Under the pieces are notes generated by a model. It had not been told where the DNA came from. It did no database searches and saw only the letters and a list, made by a program, of their open reading frames with translations. Positions 41,841-64,000 of a stretch of DNA of 64,000 nucleotides are shown piece after piece. The first letter of the stretch is position 1; each line of letters begins with the position of its first letter. The stretch is from Acidobacteriota bacterium (GTDB lineage Bacteria > Acidobacteriota > Terriglobia > Bryobacterales > Bryobacteraceae), in assembly GCA_017307505.1 (NCBI GenBank), contig JAFKEE010000034.1:124001-188000 (forward strand). The letters run 5' to 3'. A program made the translations under genes and the position numbers.

Positions 41841-43151
41841 CTAAGCGATGTCGGGCAGAAGGGCTCTTCCGGCCGGGTAAACAACGTCGGCGGCCTTGTA
41901 GCCGCTTCGCACGGCGCCTTCCATGGTTGCCGGCCAGCCGGAGCGGGTCCAGTCACCGGCCAGGACGAGATTGGGGATCGCCGTGCGGGCTTCGGGCCGC
42001 ATGAGTTCCAGTCCGGGCTTGGCGGAGAAGGTGGCGCGAATCTCTTTCACGACGTGTGCTTTCACCAGCTTTGCATTCTGCGCGGCAGGGAAGAACTCCT
42101 TTAACTCTCGGACGGCCAGATCGATCACTTCGTTTCGCGGCATATCGGTGAGTGTGCGCGAGGCGCTGACCACCAATTGGATATAGCGGCCGTCCTGCTT
42201 GTTGAACGCCCATTGCAGCGTGCGGTCGAGCAGGGTCGCGTGCGGCAGGCCGGTCACCGGACGGTCGAACCACAGGTGGATGCCCGTGATGGGGGAATGC
42301 TCGAACGGGGAGTAATCGATGTTCAGCGGGGTGGCCAGCAGAGCCAGACGCTCGAAGGGGAGGGCGGAGATGTAGTGGTCGGCTGTGAAGCGCTCATCGC
42401 CGGAGTATGCCGCGCTCACCTGCCCGCCCTCGAATTCGATGCGGGTGACGGGCGTACGAAACCGGATGTCGACTCCGGGGATGCGCTTCCACGCCTGCTG
42501 TGAGTACAGTTCCCCCAGGGGCACCGCGGGGACGCCCATCTGATAAGAGTTGGAGGAGGCGAGAAAGCCGAGGTAGAAGACCTGGAAGCCATGCGAGGCG
42601 GCCATGCGGTCGAGTTCCTCATTGATGGAGCTGACCAGAATCTGGCGCCAGAATCGCTCGATGGCCTGCTCGGGCTGCTGCTTCTCCTTGAGCCAGTCGA
42701 GCATGGTGATGGCGTCGAGATCCTGGCGGGTATGCCATTCGCTCTGGATGGCGAGCAGGGCGCGGCCGACGGCGATTTTATCAGCGAGCGACAGGAAGTG
42801 AAGGGTCGCGAACGAGCCGGTGAAGTGCAGCGGCCTGGGCAGAATGCCTGCCTTCATGGTGGAGGTCCTGCCGCCTGGCTCGATGAAGAAGAATTCCTTG
42901 TGGAAATGGATGCTCTGTTCGACGCCCAGGCGCTTGTAGAAGTCGAGGAGGTTGACGCAGCAGCGCAGCAGGATGTGCTGGCAGTTGTCGATCACTTCGC
43001 CGGATTCATCGGCGGGCAGGGGATAGGAGGTGGCGCGGCCGCCCAGGAAATGGCGTGCTTCGAGGACCGTGACTTGGTGGCCGGATTGGCCGAGGGCCGC
43101 CGCAGCAGAGAGCCCGGCGAGACCGCCGCCGAGCACGAGGACTTTTGGCAT
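41841..43151 (-). CDS. hpnE: Hydroxysqualene dehydroxylase HpnE
   Basis: 436 residues. FAD-dependent enzyme for the last step of squalene formation in the HpnCDE route (hydroxysqualene to squalene). N-terminal VLGGGLAGLSAAAALGQSGHQVTVLEARHFLGGRATSY is the FAD dinucleotide fold; the C-terminal LVLAGDWTRSGWPATMEGAVRSGYKAA is the FAD-closing motif of the phytoene desaturase group. ATG 43151 is used because it starts at MPKVLVLGGG. It follows a 38-residue microprotein whose stop overlaps the leader (TGAAATG). The shc/hpnCD partners lie 15 kb away. Confidence 0.93.
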   Translation of the reverse strand: MPKVLVLGGGLAGLSAAAALGQSGHQVTVLEARHFLGGRATSYPLPADESGEVIDNCQHILLRCCVNLLDFYKRLGVEQSIHFHKEFFFIEPGGRTSTMKAGILPRPLHFTGSFATLHFLSLADKIAVGRALLAIQSEWHTRQDLDAITMLDWLKEKQQPEQAIERFWRQILVSSINEELDRMAASHGFQVFYLGFLASSNSYQMGVPAVPLGELYSQQAWKRIPGVDIRFRTPVTRIEFEGGQVSAAYSGDERFTADHYISALPFERLALLATPLNIDYSPFEHSPITGIHLWFDRPVTGLPHATLLDRTLQWAFNKQDGRYIQLVVSASRTLTDMPRNEVIDLAVRELKEFFPAAQNAKLVKAHVVKEIRATFSAKPGLELMRPEARTAIPNLVLAGDWTRSGWPATMEGAVRSGYKAADVVYPAGRALLPDIA

Positions 43152-56884: not shown

Positions 56885-58141
56885 TTAAGCTACCTGCCCA
56901 GGGCCGTTTTCCTCGGGGGGCGGCTGTTCCTGTTGGAGCTGCTTTGTCATGTGCACTCGCAATAGGAACCAGGCGGTCCCGCAGAGGCCAATCGCACCAC
57001 CGGTGAGAAAGGTCCACTCCGGTCCGACATGGCTCCACAGCCAGACCGCCACCAGCGGGGCTGGGCAGAAGAACAGCGACCGCAGACCCCAATAGAGGCC
57101 CACGGCCCGAGCCCGGATGCGCGGTGGCATGCCCGCCGTGATGGCTGCCTTGCGGGCCGGTTCTCCTATTTCGCGCAGTCCATTGAGGACGAATGTGAGG
57201 CAGAGCGCGGTCATCAGTGGCAGTCCTGACTTTGGCAGGAGCGTCAGAGAAAACGGGAACAGCGTGAACAGGACGAAGGTAATCCCGACAAAGGGCTTCA
57301 TGCTGGAGGACCGGTCGGCCAGTTTGCCCACCGGGATGTAGGTAAGCAGGGACGTGAAGGCGGTCAACGAAGCCAGCAGGCCGTATTCGGCAGGGGTGCG
57401 GCCCAGCACCGCGACTACATACAACGCGGCGAAGTCGCGTACGAACCAGTCGCCCCAGCGGAGAAAGATCTCGGCCGTGAGCAGGCGTTTGAGGTCCGGC
57501 GGGATGGCGGCTAGTACCTCGCGGGCCGGCATGGGATCGGGCTCCGGCGTTGGCTTCATGCGTCCCAGCAGGGTGATCTGTGCGATCACAGAGGCAGCCA
57601 GCACGCCCACCGCCAGCCACAGATTCGCCCAGTAGCCGATGGCAAAGACCAGGCCGCCAATCAGCGGGCCGATGATTTTGGGGATCCGTTTCTGGATGCT
57701 CTGTACGGCGAAGGCGATGTTCCTGCGGTTGGCAGCCACCTCGCTGCCGACTACTTCGAAGGTGGCGGGCACCGAAAGCGGGTCCCAACTGGTGAGCAGG
57801 AGCGCCCCCATCACGATGGCCCATGGCTGATTCAGCGACAGTAGCAGAGTGAAGCCCACTGTCATTGGAACGGCGGAGAGCGCCAGCGCCACCCGAGGAC
57901 CCAGGCGGTGGGCAAAGGTTCCACCCAGGAAGTAACCCAAGCCCTCCACCAGGTTCTCCAGGAAGGAGTAAATGCCCATGTAGCCGACGGCCTTCGCCAG
58001 GTCGCCGGTCTTCACGTTGAGGTAGATGGAAAGGAAGTTCCGCCAGATCTCCTCGGAGAGGCCGAGCCCGCCCACCACAACGAGCACACCGAGGGCGGCG
58101 CGATTAATTCCCAGCCAGTCCGCCAAACGGCGCATGGACAT
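56885..58141 (-). CDS. MFS transporter
   Basis: 418 residues with about 12 predicted transmembrane helices in two halves, including GYFLGGTFAHRLGPRVALALS and YIPVGKLADRSSS-type loop-2/loop-8 motifs. Substrate unknown. The ATG lies 39 bp after the hpnD stop on the same strand, so it could be part of the hopanoid operon, but a lipid export role is only an inference. Confidence 0.85.
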   Translation of the reverse strand: MSMRRLADWLGINRAALGVLVVVGGLGLSEEIWRNFLSIYLNVKTGDLAKAVGYMGIYSFLENLVEGLGYFLGGTFAHRLGPRVALALSAVPMTVGFTLLLSLNQPWAIVMGALLLTSWDPLSVPATFEVVGSEVAANRRNIAFAVQSIQKRIPKIIGPLIGGLVFAIGYWANLWLAVGVLAASVIAQITLLGRMKPTPEPDPMPAREVLAAIPPDLKRLLTAEIFLRWGDWFVRDFAALYVVAVLGRTPAEYGLLASLTAFTSLLTYIPVGKLADRSSSMKPFVGITFVLFTLFPFSLTLLPKSGLPLMTALCLTFVLNGLREIGEPARKAAITAGMPPRIRARAVGLYWGLRSLFFCPAPLVAVWLWSHVGPEWTFLTGGAIGLCGTAWFLLRVHMTKQLQQEQPPPEENGPGQVA

Positions 58142-58180: not shown

Positions 58181-59026
58181 TTAGAAGAGCCGCCGCAGCC
58201 AGGCGCGCGCCAGCACCGTCATCTTTTCCGAAGTCGAAAGGCGGATTTTCCCGGGCATGACATCGTAGTTGCGCTGCTGGATGCGCTTCAGCAATTGAGA
58301 GTAGATTTCGATCAGGGCCCAGAGGGCAGGCTGGCTGTCCTCGCGCACCATTGCGATCAGCGGTGCGGACTCAGCGTAGTAGCGCTGCGCCCGCGCACCT
58401 TCGAACTCCAGCAACTGGCGGATCTCGGGCGTGGTGACGGGTGCGGCCAGAGCCTCCGGTGTCACACCGAAGCGCGCCAGGTCTTCCGCCGGCAGATACA
58501 CCCTCTGGTTGGCAGCATCCTCGCGCACGTCGCGGATGATATTCGTGAGCTGGAACGCGATGCCGCACTTCTCGGCCAGCGCCAGGGCACGCGGGTCTTC
58601 AAATCCGAAGATGTGGATCGTAGTGAGGCCGACAACCGAGGCGACCAGGTAGCAGTAGCGATAGAGTTCGTCGAAGGTCTGCACGGTGCGCGGCTCCAGG
58701 TCGCTGGAGACGCCGTCGATCATCTCGTGGAAATAGCGTGCCGGGATGCGATACTTGCGGACTACGTCCTGGAAGGCGGGCCACACCGGATGGTCGGCGG
58801 GCGGACCCGTGAGCGTCTGCACCATCTGTGCACGCCAGCCGGCGATGTTCGAAAGACTTGCTCCGGCCTCGTCGCTGAGGTCGTCGCATTCCCGCATGAA
58901 CGCGTAGATGGCGCACATGGCGAGCCGCTTCTCTTCCGGCAATACGAGAAAGGAGTAGTAGAAGTTTTTAGCCCGTGCCCGGGCAACTCCCACGCAATGG
59001 GCATAGGACGCGGACAGACGGCTCAT
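58181..59026 (-). CDS. hpnD: Presqualene diphosphate synthase HpnD
   Basis: 281 residues. Squalene/phytoene-synthase fold; HpnD couples two farnesyl diphosphates to presqualene diphosphate. First Asp-rich motif RECDDLSDE (about 44-52), FYYSFLVLPEEKR near the start, and the second motif FQLTNIIRDVREDAANQRVYLP. ATG 59026 overlaps the hpnC stop (ATGA), so the two are translationally coupled. Length is normal for the family. Confidence 0.94.
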   Translation of the reverse strand: MSRLSASYAHCVGVARARAKNFYYSFLVLPEEKRLAMCAIYAFMRECDDLSDEAGASLSNIAGWRAQMVQTLTGPPADHPVWPAFQDVVRKYRIPARYFHEMIDGVSSDLEPRTVQTFDELYRYCYLVASVVGLTTIHIFGFEDPRALALAEKCGIAFQLTNIIRDVREDAANQRVYLPAEDLARFGVTPEALAAPVTTPEIRQLLEFEGARAQRYYAESAPLIAMVREDSQPALWALIEIYSQLLKRIQQRNYDVMPGKIRLSTSEKMTVLARAWLRRLF

Positions 59027-59898
59027 GCGGCTTTCGACACGGCCGCGCGCAGCAGGCTGCGCAGCAGCAGCACTACCCGCTCCGGTTTCGAAACCACGGG
59101 CCGTCCTTTCAATACGTCGTAGTCCTGCGCCCGGATCTTGTCCAGTACCTTCATTCCGCCGCGGCTGAAGAGATCGATGTCCAGCGCCAGCCGGCGGTCC
59201 AGTTTGCTCACCAGCGGCAGGCCGGCCAGGAACAGCTCCTGGGCATAGTCGACCGCTTCCACCATGACACTGCGGAAGGCGGGCGTATTCCGGTGGGCAA
59301 ACAGCTCTTCCACCGTGTATCCATATTTGCGAAACAGGTGCAGCGGCAGGTAGACGCGATCTTTCTGGAGGTCGACGGTGACATCCTGCCAGAAGTTCGC
59401 CAGCTGCAGGGCGGAGCAGGTGGCGTCGGAGAGCCGGAAGCGTTCCTCGTCGCGATAGCCGCAGAGCATAAGCACCAGCCGGCCCACCGGATTGGCGGAG
59501 TTGACGCAGTAGCCCATGACTCCGGCCCAGTCGTCGTAGCGCGTGACCGTCTGGTCCTGGATGAACGCCGTCAGCAGGTTGTCGAACGGGTCGATGGGGA
59601 GTTTGTGCCGCTCGATGGTCGAAGCGAGAGCGACGAAGACCGGATGCGATGGTTTGCCGCGCTGGTACAGGGCGCGCAGTTCGCCGCGCCACCACTCGAG
59701 CAGGCGCAGGCTCTCGGCCGTGTCTCCGATCTCGTCGCCCAGATCGTCGGACCAGCGGCAGAAGGAGTAGACGTTGTAGAAATCCTGGTGCAGGTGCTTG
59801 GGCAGCAGAAAGCTCACCACGTTGAAGTTCTCGTAGTGGTGGGTCGCCAGCCAGTGCGTATACGACAAAGCCTGGTCACTCGACCAGGCTTTTGTCAT
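59023..59898 (-). CDS. hpnC: Hydroxysqualene synthase HpnC
   Basis: 291 residues from ATG 59898 (AGGA 5 nt before it); a GTG at 59940 has a poorer site. Same fold as HpnD but it converts presqualene diphosphate to hydroxysqualene. Asp-rich RWSDDLGDE and second motif QLANFWQDVTVDLQKDRVYLP are intact, and the HYENFNVVSFLLP start is HpnC-type. Gene order hpnC-hpnD is the common one. Confidence 0.92.
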   Translation of the reverse strand: MTKAWSSDQALSYTHWLATHHYENFNVVSFLLPKHLHQDFYNVYSFCRWSDDLGDEIGDTAESLRLLEWWRGELRALYQRGKPSHPVFVALASTIERHKLPIDPFDNLLTAFIQDQTVTRYDDWAGVMGYCVNSANPVGRLVLMLCGYRDEERFRLSDATCSALQLANFWQDVTVDLQKDRVYLPLHLFRKYGYTVEELFAHRNTPAFRSVMVEAVDYAQELFLAGLPLVSKLDRRLALDIDLFSRGGMKVLDKIRAQDYDVLKGRPVVSKPERVVLLLRSLLRAAVSKAA

Positions 59899-59956
59899 GG
59901 CTTCCTGCGATTTCAGAAACTCGACGGGTTGCAGTTGCACGCTGATCGCAACAGCC

Positions 59957-60997
59957 TTAGGGAATGATGGCCGTCTTCATGTGGCCGTTGTGGCTCATCA
60001 GGTGGCGCATCACTTCGAGCAGGTTGGTGAGCGGCTCTTCCCGGTTGACGAAATCACGGGCGGTGATGTCGCCGCGGCTGACGATGTCGAGAGCCTTGCG
60101 GATGTAGGACGGCGTGTGGTGGAAGCTGGCCACGCACTTGATCTCGCTGTAGTGCAGCATCTGCGTCTCCAGCATGATGCGCGTGTCGCTGGGGCAGCCG
60201 CCAAAGAACTGGGCGGTTCCGCCGCGGCGCAGCAGGCGCACGGCAAGTTCCCAGGTTTCCGGGTTGCCCACCGCCTCAATCACGACATCGGCGCCGTAGC
60301 CGCCGGTAAGCCCGCGCACCTGGCGCATGACATCCTCGGCGTCGGTGTTGAGCAGGGCGTCGTGCGCCCCCATGCGCAGAGCGCGGTCCAATTGCGAGGT
60401 ACGGCGGCCCAGGGCGATCACCCTGGCTCCGTAGACCTTGGCCAGCCGGACAAACATCAGACCAATCGGACCCTGGCCAATCACGACGACATTGTCGCCC
60501 GGGCGCACGTGGGTCTCTTCCAAACCCTTCAGGACGCAGGCCAGCGGCTCAATCAGGGCCGCATCCGGATAGCTCAGGTGGCCGGGGATCTCGTAAAGGT
60601 TCCGTTGGACGATGCGGGCGGGAATACGAATGAACTCGGCGTACGCCCCATTGTTAAACAACAGGTCCTCGCAGAGATTCTCCAGACCCTTGCGGCAGTA
60701 GAAACAGTTCAGGCAGGGCGCGGAGTTGGCTGCCACCACCCGTTGACCGGCGTGGAAGCCTTCCACATGCTCGCCTACGGCGACGATGTCGCCCGCCAAC
60801 TCATGACCGAACAGGGCCGGCGGGACGATCATTTTTGCGTGATACCCGCGACGGAAAACCTTCACGTCGGTGCCGCAGGTGAGTGCGGCCCGCACGCGCA
60901 CGAGCACGTCGCCTTTTTCAATTTGAGGCACGGACACCTGTTCTACGCGCACCTGTTCACGCCCGTAGAGCACGGCGGCCATCATCTGCTTGTTCAC
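59957..60997 (-). CDS. Zinc-type medium-chain dehydrogenase B inside hopanoid operon
   Basis: 346 residues from GTG 60997 (AGAGG 9 nt upstream); ATG at 60985 is possible. Catalytic zinc Cys in CGTDVK (the usual Cys-Gly-x-x motif), GHELAG (about 64), structural zinc CLNCFYCRKGLENLC, and the NAD fold VIGQGPIGLMF. It resembles sorbitol/threonine-type MDRs and its neighbour. It immediately follows dehydrogenase A (stop TAA then GTG) and precedes hpnC. Hypothesis: acts on a hopanoid side-chain aldehyde or alcohol. Confidence 0.86.
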   Translation of the reverse strand: MNKQMMAAVLYGREQVRVEQVSVPQIEKGDVLVRVRAALTCGTDVKVFRRGYHAKMIVPPALFGHELAGDIVAVGEHVEGFHAGQRVVAANSAPCLNCFYCRKGLENLCEDLLFNNGAYAEFIRIPARIVQRNLYEIPGHLSYPDAALIEPLACVLKGLEETHVRPGDNVVVIGQGPIGLMFVRLAKVYGARVIALGRRTSQLDRALRMGAHDALLNTDAEDVMRQVRGLTGGYGADVVIEAVGNPETWELAVRLLRRGGTAQFFGGCPSDTRIMLETQMLHYSEIKCVASFHHTPSYIRKALDIVSRGDITARDFVNREEPLTNLLEVMRHLMSHNGHMKTAIIP

Positions 60998-62053
60998 TTA
61001 AGACAACCTCTGTGGCTGAACCATTATTTTCAACGATTTGCCGTCCGGATGCAACGCCAGGCCGATGCCTTCCTGGATCTCAGAGAGCGGAAGTCTGTGA
61101 GAAACCAAATCTTCCACTGGCAAATCCCCGCTAAATACCAGACGAGCGGATTCGGCCTGAAGATCGACCGAAGCGCTGTAACACCCTAACAGCGTCCGCT
61201 CCAATTTGCAGATGTCAGCGCCGGAGAGTTCGATTCTTTCCGTGTCACTGGTCTGCGCAAACAGTAAGATCTTGCCGCCGGGACGGGAAGAGGCAACGGC
61301 CTGATCCACAATCCCCTTGGCTGAGGCGGCGACGAATACCTGGTCGACGCCGCGACCCTCCGTCAATCCCTTACACAGGCGCGCGACATCCTCCGCGCGC
61401 GGATCCCACGCTTCGGTAGCCCCAAACCGGCGGGACAACGCCAGACGCTCTGGAATCGCGTCTGTCGCCAGGACGGTGGCTCCGGTGCGCTTTACCAGCA
61501 TGGTAAACAACAACCCAATCGGGCCCTGGCCCTGAACCAGCACCACATCCCCGGGCTGCGGGTTCATCTCCACGACCGCCTTCAGGCACGTATTCACTGG
61601 TTCAACAAAACTGGCAACTTCGAACGATACACCCTCCGGGATCAACTCCACGCCGTCACGGACAATCCAGTCCATCACCCGGATGTACTGGGCGAATCCG
61701 CCCCCGGCGGGCTCGAACCCGGCTGTAATACCAACCCTCTTGTAAGTTTCGCACTGTGCGTACAGTTTCTTCGAGCAATAAAAACATTTCTTACAAGGAA
61801 TGTGGTGAAAGGCAATGACCCGGTCACCGGCCCGGTACTTCGTAACACCCGCGCCCACCTGTACAACTACACCTGCGGACTCGTGCCCATAGATGCGCGG
61901 CGGCGGCAGCAGATCGTGCTCCACCTTTTTCAGATCGGTGTGGCAGATGCCGCACGCCTCCACACGAACCAGAATCTCGCCCGGTCCGATCTGAGGCACG
62001 GGCACGGGCTCCACGCTGATCTGGCCCTGACCCGTGTAGACGGCGGCCATCAT
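60998..62053 (-). CDS. Zinc-type medium-chain dehydrogenase A inside hopanoid operon
   Basis: 351 residues from ATG 62053. Catalytic zinc CGICHTD, GHESAG, structural zinc CKKCFYCSKKLYAQC (C-x2-C-x2-C-x7-C) and NAD fold VLVQGQGPIGLLF. It lies 25 bp after the hpnG stop. The frame upstream of 62053 runs into hpnG. Together with B it forms a tandem pair, likely from duplication. Function in hopanoid side-chain redox is inferred from position only. Confidence 0.86.
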   Translation of the reverse strand: MMAAVYTGQGQISVEPVPVPQIGPGEILVRVEACGICHTDLKKVEHDLLPPPRIYGHESAGVVVQVGAGVTKYRAGDRVIAFHHIPCKKCFYCSKKLYAQCETYKRVGITAGFEPAGGGFAQYIRVMDWIVRDGVELIPEGVSFEVASFVEPVNTCLKAVVEMNPQPGDVVLVQGQGPIGLLFTMLVKRTGATVLATDAIPERLALSRRFGATEAWDPRAEDVARLCKGLTEGRGVDQVFVAASAKGIVDQAVASSRPGGKILLFAQTSDTERIELSGADICKLERTLLGCYSASVDLQAESARLVFSGDLPVEDLVSHRLPLSEIQEGIGLALHPDGKSLKIMVQPQRLS

Positions 62054-62078: not shown

Positions 62079-62795
62079 TTAGAATCGGCAGTCGGCAAGG
62101 AAATCCCCCAGATTCGTGGAAGCGCGGCGGCAGTGGGCGTCCAGGCGCACAAGCCCGGCAAAACTGGCTGGCCGCATTAGTGCGGCGGCCACAATGCGTC
62201 CGCGCGAAAAACGACCATCCCGGTCGCGGTACAGGTTGAAATCGAGTGGCATCTCATCGCGCGCTGTGTCACTTACGACGCGGATGCAATAAAACGGAGT
62301 TTCCGATCTTTCCGCCCGATCAGCGACGGCGGCGGCTTCCATCTCCACCACGGACGATCCTTCCGCCCATAGTGCGGCTTTCTCGGCGGCTGTCACCGCC
62401 ACCCGGTCCACCGAAAGCAGGCGGCCCTGGGCGTGTGGAACATCAACATTTGTTGGATTGGATTCGAATTCGCGGCCCTGGTCCCTCGCCTCGACCGTCG
62501 ACGCCACAAACACCTGGCAGGCATCCAGGGCGGGGTCCAAAGCTCCGCAGAATCCGGTACTTATGAAGGCGCGAGGCTCGCATTGCCGGGCGGCCACGTC
62601 GGCTGCTTCGCCGGCCAGCCTGGGACCCGGGCCATTGGCCGAAAGGATCCACGACGCCCCGCCGATCTCGGCCCGGCGGGCAAACTGCACCGGCCAGTCG
62701 AGTTCCGACACGGAGGACGCGTGCCGCAACAGCCCCTCAAACTCGCGGGCCTCCGCGGCAATCGCCACTATCGGGTTTCCGTCAACAGTAGCCAT
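62079..62795 (-). CDS. hpnG: Adenosylhopane nucleosidase HpnG
   Basis: 238 residues from ATG 62795; a TTG at 62804 is an alternative. Nucleoside-phosphorylase fold with the SSVVEMEAAAVADRA purine-site motif. HpnG removes adenine from adenosylhopane to give ribosylhopane. It overlaps hpnA by 14 bp, implying coupling. The GAGG in the hpnA 3' end serves as its ribosome site. Confidence 0.85.
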   Translation of the reverse strand: MATVDGNPIVAIAAEAREFEGLLRHASSVSELDWPVQFARRAEIGGASWILSANGPGPRLAGEAADVAARQCEPRAFISTGFCGALDPALDACQVFVASTVEARDQGREFESNPTNVDVPHAQGRLLSVDRVAVTAAEKAALWAEGSSVVEMEAAAVADRAERSETPFYCIRVVSDTARDEMPLDFNLYRDRDGRFSRGRIVAAALMRPASFAGLVRLDAHCRRASTNLGDFLADCRF

Positions 62796-63756
62796 TTGCC
62801 TCAAACCAGGTCACAGCCTTGCGCAATGCAAGATCAGCGCCAGAGGGACGGAAGCCCAACTCCCGCTCCGCCTTGGCGCAACTTACCCACATTCTCTTCC
62901 GGGCCATCCGGACCGCGTCCAGAGGCACCCGCGGGGCTACCCCGCTGATATTCGCCCAGGCCGTTGAAAACGCGCCAGCTACCAGGGCCACCAGCCACGG
63001 GATTCTTGTCTTGGGTGCCGTCTTGCCGCTGATGGCGGCCAGCTTGCCCAGAATCTGCTCCAGCGTCAGGTTCTCGCTGCCGAGTATATACCGTTCGCCG
63101 GACTTTCCCCGTTCGCACGCCAGCCAGTGTCCTTCCGCCGTCTCCCGGGCGTCCACAATATTCAAACCGGTATCGACGAAAGCCGGAATCCGGCCGGCCA
63201 GGAAATCCACGATGGTCTGCCCGGTAGGGGTTGGTTTCACGTCGTGGTCGCCTACGGGTGCCGTAGGGTTCACAATCACCACCGGGAACCCTTCCTGGGC
63301 AAACCGCAGCGCCTCCTGCTCCGCCAGGAATTTCGACCGTTTATAGTGTCCGGTCATGTCTTCCAGGCTCACAGGCGTCGTCTCATTCCCCAGACCGCCC
63401 GGAACAAAGCCGATACACCCGACCGTGCTTGTATAGACCACCCGTTCGACGCCCGCCTTGCGGGCCGCGCCCAGCAGGTTCCTCGTCCCGGCGACGTTGG
63501 AGTCGTACATTTCCTGCGGATTCTTCACCCACAGCCGGTAGTCGGCGGCGACGTGGAACACCAGGCTGCAGCCGGCGACAGCCCTGCGCAGGGAATCAGC
63601 GTCGCGCAGGTCGCCGGGCACAATCTCGACGTCCAAACCGCGCAGATTCTCCGGTTTACGTGCCATGGCGCGGACGGGAATACCTCTCTCTACTAGCCCG
63701 TTTGCCACGTGCCAGCCGAGAAACCCCGAAGCGCCAGTCACTAACGCCGGCTTCAA
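62782..63756 (-). CDS. hpnA: Hopanoid-associated NAD-dependent sugar epimerase HpnA
   Basis: 324 residues. Extended SDR with TGASGFLG, VFHVAADYRLW and the HpnA-type run GDHDVKPTPTGQTIVDFL and VDTGLNIVDARETAEGHWLA. The TTG start at 63756 has GAGG 6 nt upstream. HpnA is found in many hopanoid clusters; its exact step is not settled. It lies 82 bp after shc. Confidence 0.93.
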   Translation of the reverse strand: MKPALVTGASGFLGWHVANGLVERGIPVRAMARKPENLRGLDVEIVPGDLRDADSLRRAVAGCSLVFHVAADYRLWVKNPQEMYDSNVAGTRNLLGAARKAGVERVVYTSTVGCIGFVPGGLGNETTPVSLEDMTGHYKRSKFLAEQEALRFAQEGFPVVIVNPTAPVGDHDVKPTPTGQTIVDFLAGRIPAFVDTGLNIVDARETAEGHWLACERGKSGERYILGSENLTLEQILGKLAAISGKTAPKTRIPWLVALVAGAFSTAWANISGVAPRVPLDAVRMARKRMWVSCAKAERELGFRPSGADLALRKAVTWFEANGYC

Positions 63757-63838: not shown

Positions 63839-64000
63839 TCATGGGTGCACGGCGCCTCGTCCGCCCTTTAGTTTCATATATTCCGCGAGCGCAAGCGCCG
63901 GGAAAGAATGCCGGTAGAGATGATAGGTGAGGTAGAAGACCCTCGGGAAACCAGTCCCCGTCGCCAGATTCTCATCCCACCCGCCATCCTGGCGCTGATT
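63839..64000 (-). CDS. shc: Squalene-hopene cyclase, C-terminal end (partial)
   Basis: The last 53 codons of shc, cut by the window edge. QRQDGGWDE is a QW-type repeat and GTGFPRVFYLTYHLYRH is the highly conserved C-terminal signature of squalene-hopene cyclase. It is followed by LALAEYMK and a short basic tail. Shc cyclises squalene to hopene/hopanol at the membrane. It is the first visible gene of the operon read toward hpnD. Confidence 0.92.
   Translation of the reverse strand, partial: NQRQDGGWDENLATGTGFPRVFYLTYHLYRHSFPALALAEYMKLKGGRGAVHP

Follow-up and report, generated by a model that had tools for sequence, protein, structure and literature searches.

Two zinc-dependent medium-chain dehydrogenases (MDR1 and MDR2) are encoded within the hopanoid operon of a soil-type Acidobacteriota bacterium of the family Bryobacteraceae, and relatives that apparently lack hopanoids keep the pair, so it is probably not simply the missing enzyme of the hopanoid side chain. 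The pair is probably co-expressed with the hopanoid pathway, yet not confined to it. Bacterial lipids in wide use as biomarkers derive from bacteriohopanetetrol (BHT), and the available sections of a paper of 2025 still call the BHT-forming enzyme not established (PMC12583986); the sequence-only reading of this DNA had likewise stated that the step from ribosylhopane to BHT has no firmly assigned enzyme. The order to which the genome belongs provides a natural experiment, since it contains genomes without squalene-hopene cyclase (SHC) and HpnH which keep MDR1 and, less cleanly, MDR2. This experiment lowers the MDR pair as a generic answer to the question of BHT formation and leaves hypotheses that are directly testable. 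It is also a warning that operon position alone is insufficient for reading function.

Results

The MDR pair is embedded in a hopanoid operon

The window, that is the whole stretch of 64,000 nucleotides analysed, carries on its minus strand a tight cluster in the order ispH-shc-hpnA-hpnG-MDR1-MDR2-hpnC-hpnD, followed by an MFS gene (Table 1), with ispH and most of shc lying beyond the window. The layout described earlier from the sequence alone, two MDRs with full zinc motifs abutting on one strand between hpnG and hpnC with hpnA, shc and hpnD around them, was confirmed, hpnD being below its cut-off and assigned partly by synteny. At the junction, TCT TAA of MDR1 is followed directly by GTG AAC of MDR2. 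The hpnG score is under the cut-off of the NCBIfam profile TIGR03468, which was reached in none of the 199 genomes of the phylum sample, so that this model is perhaps a poor fit to the phylum. Among six operon genes compared, hpnG was the fastest-changing (33-46% identity between SHC-bearing loci). The hpnH gene of the source genome is located on a separate contig (C74).

Table 1. Features of the window and of the other loci discussed (positions are those of the sequence named in the second column).
Feature	Sequence	Positions	Strand	Remarks
hpnE, hydroxysqualene dehydroxylase	window	41880-43142	-	away from operon; converted from G000:C15:165880-167142
MFS transporter, beyond hpnD	window	56885-58141	-	candidate neighbour only, operon tie not implied
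hpnD, presqualene diphosphate synthase	window	58181-59119	-	258.3 bits, cut-off 278.6; partly synteny; start uncertain
hpnC, squalene synthase HpnC	window	59023-59940	-	NCBIfam 335.3 bits, cut-off 250.45
MDR2, zinc medium-chain dehydrogenase, NADP-type coenzyme site	window	59957-60997	-	346 aa, GTG start
MDR1, zinc medium-chain dehydrogenase, NAD-type coenzyme site	window	60998-62053	-	351 aa, ATG start
hpnG, hopanoid-associated phosphorylase	window	62079-62804	-	128.0 bits, cut-off 187.1; score and synteny
hpnA, hopanoid-associated sugar epimerase	window	62782-63756	-	NCBIfam 458.6 bits, cut-off 367.65
shc (squalene-hopene cyclase), 3' part	window	63839-64000	-	gene extends past window; L010 9840-11783; G000:C15:187866-189758
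hpnG remnant	L247	3412-3960		between ispH and MDR1
hpnG remnant	L250	9442-9990		between ispH and MDR1
MDR2	L250	11038-12180		possible early decay stage
MDR1-MDR2	L147	6581-9617		G066
MDR2, lone orthologue	L138	8240-9289		G132
Third MDR	L291	6660-7706		
Third MDR	L294	11607-12641		
Third MDR	L295	7525-8559		
Third MDR	L296	12552-13586		
Third MDR	L297	7285-8319		
Third MDR	L298	5503-6537		

MDR1 and MDR2 are zinc MDRs with different coenzyme sites

Both Pfam domains of the family, ADH_N (PF08240) and ADH_zinc_N (PF00107), were found in MDR1 (90.9 and 67.2 bits) and in MDR2 (90.1 and 90.9 bits), with cut-offs of 23.5 and 31.8, respectively. The catalytic Cys, the GHE motif and the Glu as well as the four structural Cys are intact in all distinct orthologue rows aligned (28/28 for MDR1 and 29/29 for MDR2). 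Having both domains and all zinc ligands, the two proteins are zinc MDRs. In Rossmann folds, an acidic residue at the end of beta-2 usually marks the NAD type. Such a residue occupies this position in 28/28 MDR1 rows (27 Asp and one Glu) and is absent from 28 of the 29 MDR2 rows (the exception being G037), in which Arg, Lys or Asn is adjacent. Judged from these coenzyme-site residues, MDR1 is predicted to use NAD and MDR2 NADP.

In a tree of 107 rows, MDR1 (35 rows) and MDR2 (36 rows) each formed one clade with support of 100/99; the deep branching order of this tree is unsure owing to six long E. coli branches. Related, distant tandem MDR pairs occur elsewhere in the phylum (L131, L132, L133, L134, L139, L141, L142 and L143), with settings near dxs (G098, G055) or between a DEAD helicase and a prephenate dehydratase (G108). 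Fifteen of the 19 rows labelled D2 by score join MDR2 in one superclade (51 rows, 100/97), and the remaining four group with the type-1 partners, which do not form one clade with MDR1.

The place of the pair in the operon is conserved

Clear orthologues of MDR1 (at least 49% identity, next tier at most 40%) were found in 29 of the 199 genomes of the phylum sample, and clear orthologues of MDR2 (at least 49%, next tier at most 45%) in 30, namely the same 29 and G132. MDR1 neighbours hpnG in 21 of the 29 genomes, hpnA in seven (family f28) and neither in one (G066). The two genes are in tandem in 17 genomes and separated in 12, and in all 12 of these MDR2 lies directly 5' of hpnC-hpnD. The close-relative set, the best 80 of at least 577 relatives, represents the nearest kin rather than an unbiased sample; its loci, titled mostly Bryobacterales, Solibacter or Acidobacteria, include the four SHC-less loci described below, and its closest MDR1 (82% identical) comes from a Paludibaculum MAG. 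At those of the best 80 loci with room for the comparison, hpnG adjoins MDR1 in 76/78, MDR2 comes next in 73/73 and hpnC follows MDR2 in 70/71, the sole exception being L213. Across the loci examined, placement is near-invariant in families f1, f2, f28 and f50 and in genera g200 and g201 of family f69. The place of the MDR pair in the hopanoid operon is thus more than chance.

The orthologous pair of G066 follows a proline dehydrogenase gene and lies on a different contig from shc-hpnH-hpnA-hpnG. The earlier reading had named homologues far from any hopanoid gene as evidence against its proposal; this pair comes close to such a case. In the phylum sample, 28 of the 29 MDR1 genes adjoin hpnG or hpnA. 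The lone MDR2 orthologue of G132 is 53% identical, and no match to HpnH, SHC or squalene/phytoene synthase was found in that genome.

MDR1 is not general to HpnH-bearing genomes of the phylum sample

HpnH served as a stand-in for BHT making in the phylum sample. It was over its cut-off in 50 of the 199 genomes, of which 28 have MDR1 and 22 do not. These 22 include G007, a likely assembly gap, where HpnH and SHC are present, nothing matching hpnG, the MDRs or squalene synthase was found and the contig ends about 2 kb past hpnH. MDR1 is therefore not general to BHT makers in this sample, and in the survey of co-occurrence with hpnG and hpnH suggested by the sequence-only reading, the adjacency to hpn genes proved strongly conserved but many HpnH-bearing genomes had no MDR1. 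One genome (G113) has MDR1 and SHC with no HpnH match.

Six genomes of f28/g40 (L151-L156; L276-L281) carry MDR1-MDR2-hpnD behind ispH and hpnA, with no hpnG or hpnC there and no hpnE match; a second, divergent squalene/phytoene-synthase homologue lies elsewhere (one of the six was scanned). That the pair replaces hpnG in these genomes is only a thought, and weaker phosphorylase-family matches exist elsewhere in them. Squalene/phytoene synthases were found in 12 of 14 genomes searched, the two without being G132, which has MDR2 alone, and G007, which has neither MDR.

A third zinc MDR with an NAD-type site is located directly after hpnH in six of eight shc loci from another family of the order (g198, g202; Table 1), and its identity to MDR1 and MDR2 rows is 33-37% at best. 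In the four g202 loci that were scanned (of five), genes past the third MDR match models of N-carbamoylputrescine amidase or agmatine deiminase, below cut-off.

Genomes without SHC and HpnH keep the pair

Among 257 genomes of the order, an SHC match was found in 249 (242 over the family cut-off) and MDR1 in 243; among the 163 of good quality, the counts were 158 and 162, the one good-quality genome without an MDR1 match (G372) having SHC. MDR1 is present in seven of the eight SHC-less genomes, the exception (G235) being 62% complete, and in all five of good quality (G440, G442, G443, G444 and G452). The four of these that were examined, which are 93-99% complete, have no match to SHC or HpnH and keep both MDRs (G444, G442, G443 and G440, with loci L247, L250, L244 and L248, respectively). 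All four loci read ispH-(hpnG)-MDR1-MDR2-hpnC-hpnD; shc and hpnA are absent from them (hpnA was looked for at the loci only). The next gene after hpnD is hpnE, recognised by model in L247, L244 and L248 and in L250 by 95% identity to that of L247 (23 changes in 478 codons). L244 and L248 have an intact hpnG, and in L247 and L250 a remnant matching the C-terminal part of HpnG lies between ispH and MDR1. When the L244 HpnG was used as tblastn query against the two gaps alone, matches of 46% over 52 residues and 49% over 45 residues were obtained (E 8e-8 and 1e-9), and the HpnG of the window as query gave no significant match in these gaps.

Pairwise dN/dS of MDR1 and MDR2 was 0.08-0.14 within the SHC-less group, save for MDR2 between L247 and L250 (seven of ten comparisons computable, the rest saturated), and likewise low, at 0.09-0.24, for SHC-bearing pairs (10 of 12 computable, the rest saturated). 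The L247-L250 comparison of MDR2 gave 0.46, with 13 amino-acid changes against nine synonymous-only codons; the corresponding counts were 10/21 for MDR1, 6/21 for IspH, 15/21 for HpnC, 6/17 for HpnD and 23/30 for HpnE. At 78 columns otherwise invariant in MDR2, L250 departs six times (including H293P), L247 and L248 twice each and L244 once, and at 76 invariant columns of MDR1 each of the four departs once. From these codon and column counts MDR1 looks independent of hopanoids, and MDR2 is perhaps loosening where hpnG decayed; a relaxation of MDR2 once hopanoids are lost, if real, would be the behaviour expected of a hopanoid enzyme. The MDR2 of L250 is possibly at an early stage of decay.

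The intact hpnG of L244 and L248 means that SHC loss there may be recent, in which case the retention of the MDRs says less. Moreover, the four SHC-less genomes group together as a single clade in the tree of MDRs; in the same family, MDR1 is not in the stretch around shc-hpnH at six loci of g198 and g202, whereas in g200 and g201 a single cluster holds MDR1, MDR2, shc and hpnH, so that all four cases may go back to one or two losses. The neighbours of the four loci were scanned for another use of squalene, and no obvious lipid enzyme was seen among ten proteins.

Discussion

Our preferred reading, held tentatively and with a little less than even confidence, is that the two MDRs, inherited together, form a polyol-type couple with split coenzyme preference, acting on a polyol-like or prenyl-linked substrate and not confined to ribosylhopane reduction. 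Both would act on one alcohol/ketone group of this substrate or on successive ones, MDR1 using NAD(H), most probably for oxidation, and MDR2 using NADP(H), most probably for reduction. The reading starts from the operon position, the zinc sites, the coenzyme-site residues, the co-inheritance and the retention without SHC and HpnH, all of which are observed; coenzyme use, reaction direction, co-expression and a common substrate are what we infer. The idea of a couple is weakened because the two genes lie apart in 12 of 29 genomes, and the very long conservation of the operon suggests a tie to the hopanoid pathway, which counts against this reading. The possible relaxation of MDR2 in L250, the perhaps recent SHC loss in L244 and L248 and the SHC-bearing G372 with no MDR1 match speak against it as well.

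Less probable, and on balance unlikely, is that one MDR, more likely the NADP-type MDR2, is the ribosylhopane reductase of this lineage, converting the open-chain aldehyde to BHT without being an orthologue of the enzyme that other phyla use, with MDR1 possibly acting on another side-chain hydroxyl. Such an enzyme would be expected beside genes of the hpnG/hpnH pathway, which is where MDR1 is found (next to hpnG in 21 and to hpnA in seven of 29 genomes), and to be lost alongside SHC and HpnH, whereas all four genomes without a match to either keep the pair, with signs of relaxation in the MDR2 of one. Those signs, in L250, where hpnG has decayed, speak for the reductase, as do the vacancy of the step (PMC12583986, available sections) and the different third MDR that comes directly after hpnH in g198 and g202. 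The bacteriohopanepolyols (BHPs) of cultured relatives are, moreover, mostly tetrafunctionalised, with 97% in Paludibaculum fermentans, 98% in Solibacter usitatus and 100% in Bryobacter aggregatus MPL3 (Table 1 of PMC5462960, from the accessible part of that paper). Against it stand the absence of MDR1 from 22 of 50 HpnH genomes, the place of split MDR2 beside hpnC-hpnD, not hpnG, in 12/12 genomes, and Chloracidobacterium thermophilum, which according to the same part of PMC5462960 makes BHT and lacks the gene termed ug2. A dedicated reducing role is not favoured because of the retention without SHC and HpnH and the 22 genomes without MDR1. The proposal of the sequence-only reading, that one or both MDRs carry out the ribosylhopane step, therefore stands as far as operon embedding is concerned, whereas as a dedicated role it fits poorly with the retention, the 22 of 50 genomes, C. 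thermophilum and G066; a lineage-specific or promiscuous role in this step is possible.

An idea that we consider improbable combines both functions: the redox couple would edit the ribose-derived C35 side chain, one hydroxyl being oxidised and a carbonyl re-reduced, MDR2 would be the lineage-specific reductase from ribosylhopane to BHT, and a second substrate would keep at least MDR1 after hopanoid loss.

It is also improbable that the pair serves the squalene arm, making or recycling something tied to FPP, presqualene or squalene. Where SHC and HpnH are gone, the pair is kept with hpnC-hpnD-hpnE and ispH; MDR2 precedes hpnC in 12/12 split genomes and at 70 of the 71 loci long enough to tell (best 80 of at least 577 relatives), and 12 of the 14 genomes searched have squalene/phytoene synthases. 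However, the six f28/g40 genomes have the pair and hpnD with no adjacent hpnC and no hpnE match, and in G066 hpnE and two genes of the squalene-synthase family are not on the contig that carries the pair. To our knowledge, MDRs have no part in squalene formation. In the accessible part of PMC5462960, ug2 was judged non-essential for squalene, C. thermophilum being without it.

The least probable reading takes the MDRs as operon passengers, general polyol or alcohol dehydrogenases unconnected to isoprenoids and held in place by shared transcription. Related tandem pairs in other settings (G098, G055, G108), the G066 pair after a proline dehydrogenase gene and the slightly more frequent retention of MDR1 than of SHC (162 vs 158 of 163 good-quality genomes) are consistent with passengers; the almost constant position at the loci examined from f1, f2, f28, f50 and f69 (g200, g201) is not, nor is the finding that each half of a split pair remains with hpn genes in the 12 genomes checked. 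That MDR2 takes the place of hpnE was ruled out, since hpnE is present in the source genome and also follows hpnD in the SHC-less loci.

Comparison with known systems

A literature search for a link of these dehydrogenases with hopanoids gave one pertinent paper, judged by the parts accessible (Sinninghe Damste et al., 2017; PMC5462960). These parts describe, in Acidobacteria, a cluster C of hpnA-hpnG-ug1 and a cluster A of ug2-hpnC-hpnD-hpnE, in which ug2, of about 350 aa and 5' of hpnC, is often annotated as a Zn-binding alcohol dehydrogenase. From gene order, MDR1 is probably ug1, which likewise follows hpnA-hpnG but is not stated there to be an MDR, and MDR2 would correspond to ug2, with the reservation that the statements on SD3 conflict (cluster A without ug2 in SD3 vs ug2 in all SD1 and SD3 strains). 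The same parts describe for ug1 and ug2 no tandem pair, coenzyme split, gene phylogeny or retention without SHC; the separate MDR1 and MDR2 clades, the split into NAD-type and NADP-type residues, the retention without SHC and HpnH and the absence of MDR1 from 22 of 50 HpnH genomes are new here.

The AlphaFold models of MDR1 and MDR2 have a mean pLDDT of 92.0 and 90.8, respectively, and matched solved MDR structures of the polyol, ketose, threonine and alcohol types, with sequence identities of about 21-32%. Structures of NADP(H)-dependent ketose reductase/sorbitol dehydrogenase (1e3j, 3qe3 and, for MDR2 only, 1pl6) are among the closest folds (TM about 0.85-0.90), but at a mere 24-28% sequence identity their substrate is not transferable. 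The top NCBIfam models for both proteins were IolM (NF041097) and L-threonine 3-dehydrogenase (TIGR00692, NF003808), and both proteins have the MDR zinc sites. MDR1 and MDR2 are nevertheless not members of these families, with scores of 149-174 bits against cut-offs of 380-458: IolM gave 159.7 for MDR1 and 173.9 for MDR2 (cut-off 450), tdh 149 and 159.5 (cut-off 458.35) and PRK05396 155.8 and 157 (cut-off 380). Substrate assignment by family or fold thus failed, as no equivalog cut-off was reached and the fold matches cover many substrates.

For the ribosylhopane to BHT step, HpnA was proposed in the accessible part of PMC5462960, and the corresponding part of PMC12583986 reports no obvious new candidates in the surroundings of alphaproteobacterial clusters besides HpnA, HpnB, HpnL and HpnM. 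HpnA (TIGR03466) shares the operon with the MDRs but is an NAD-dependent epimerase/dehydratase of an SDR-type family unlike theirs, and its gene is missing at the four SHC-less loci, where the MDR pair stays.
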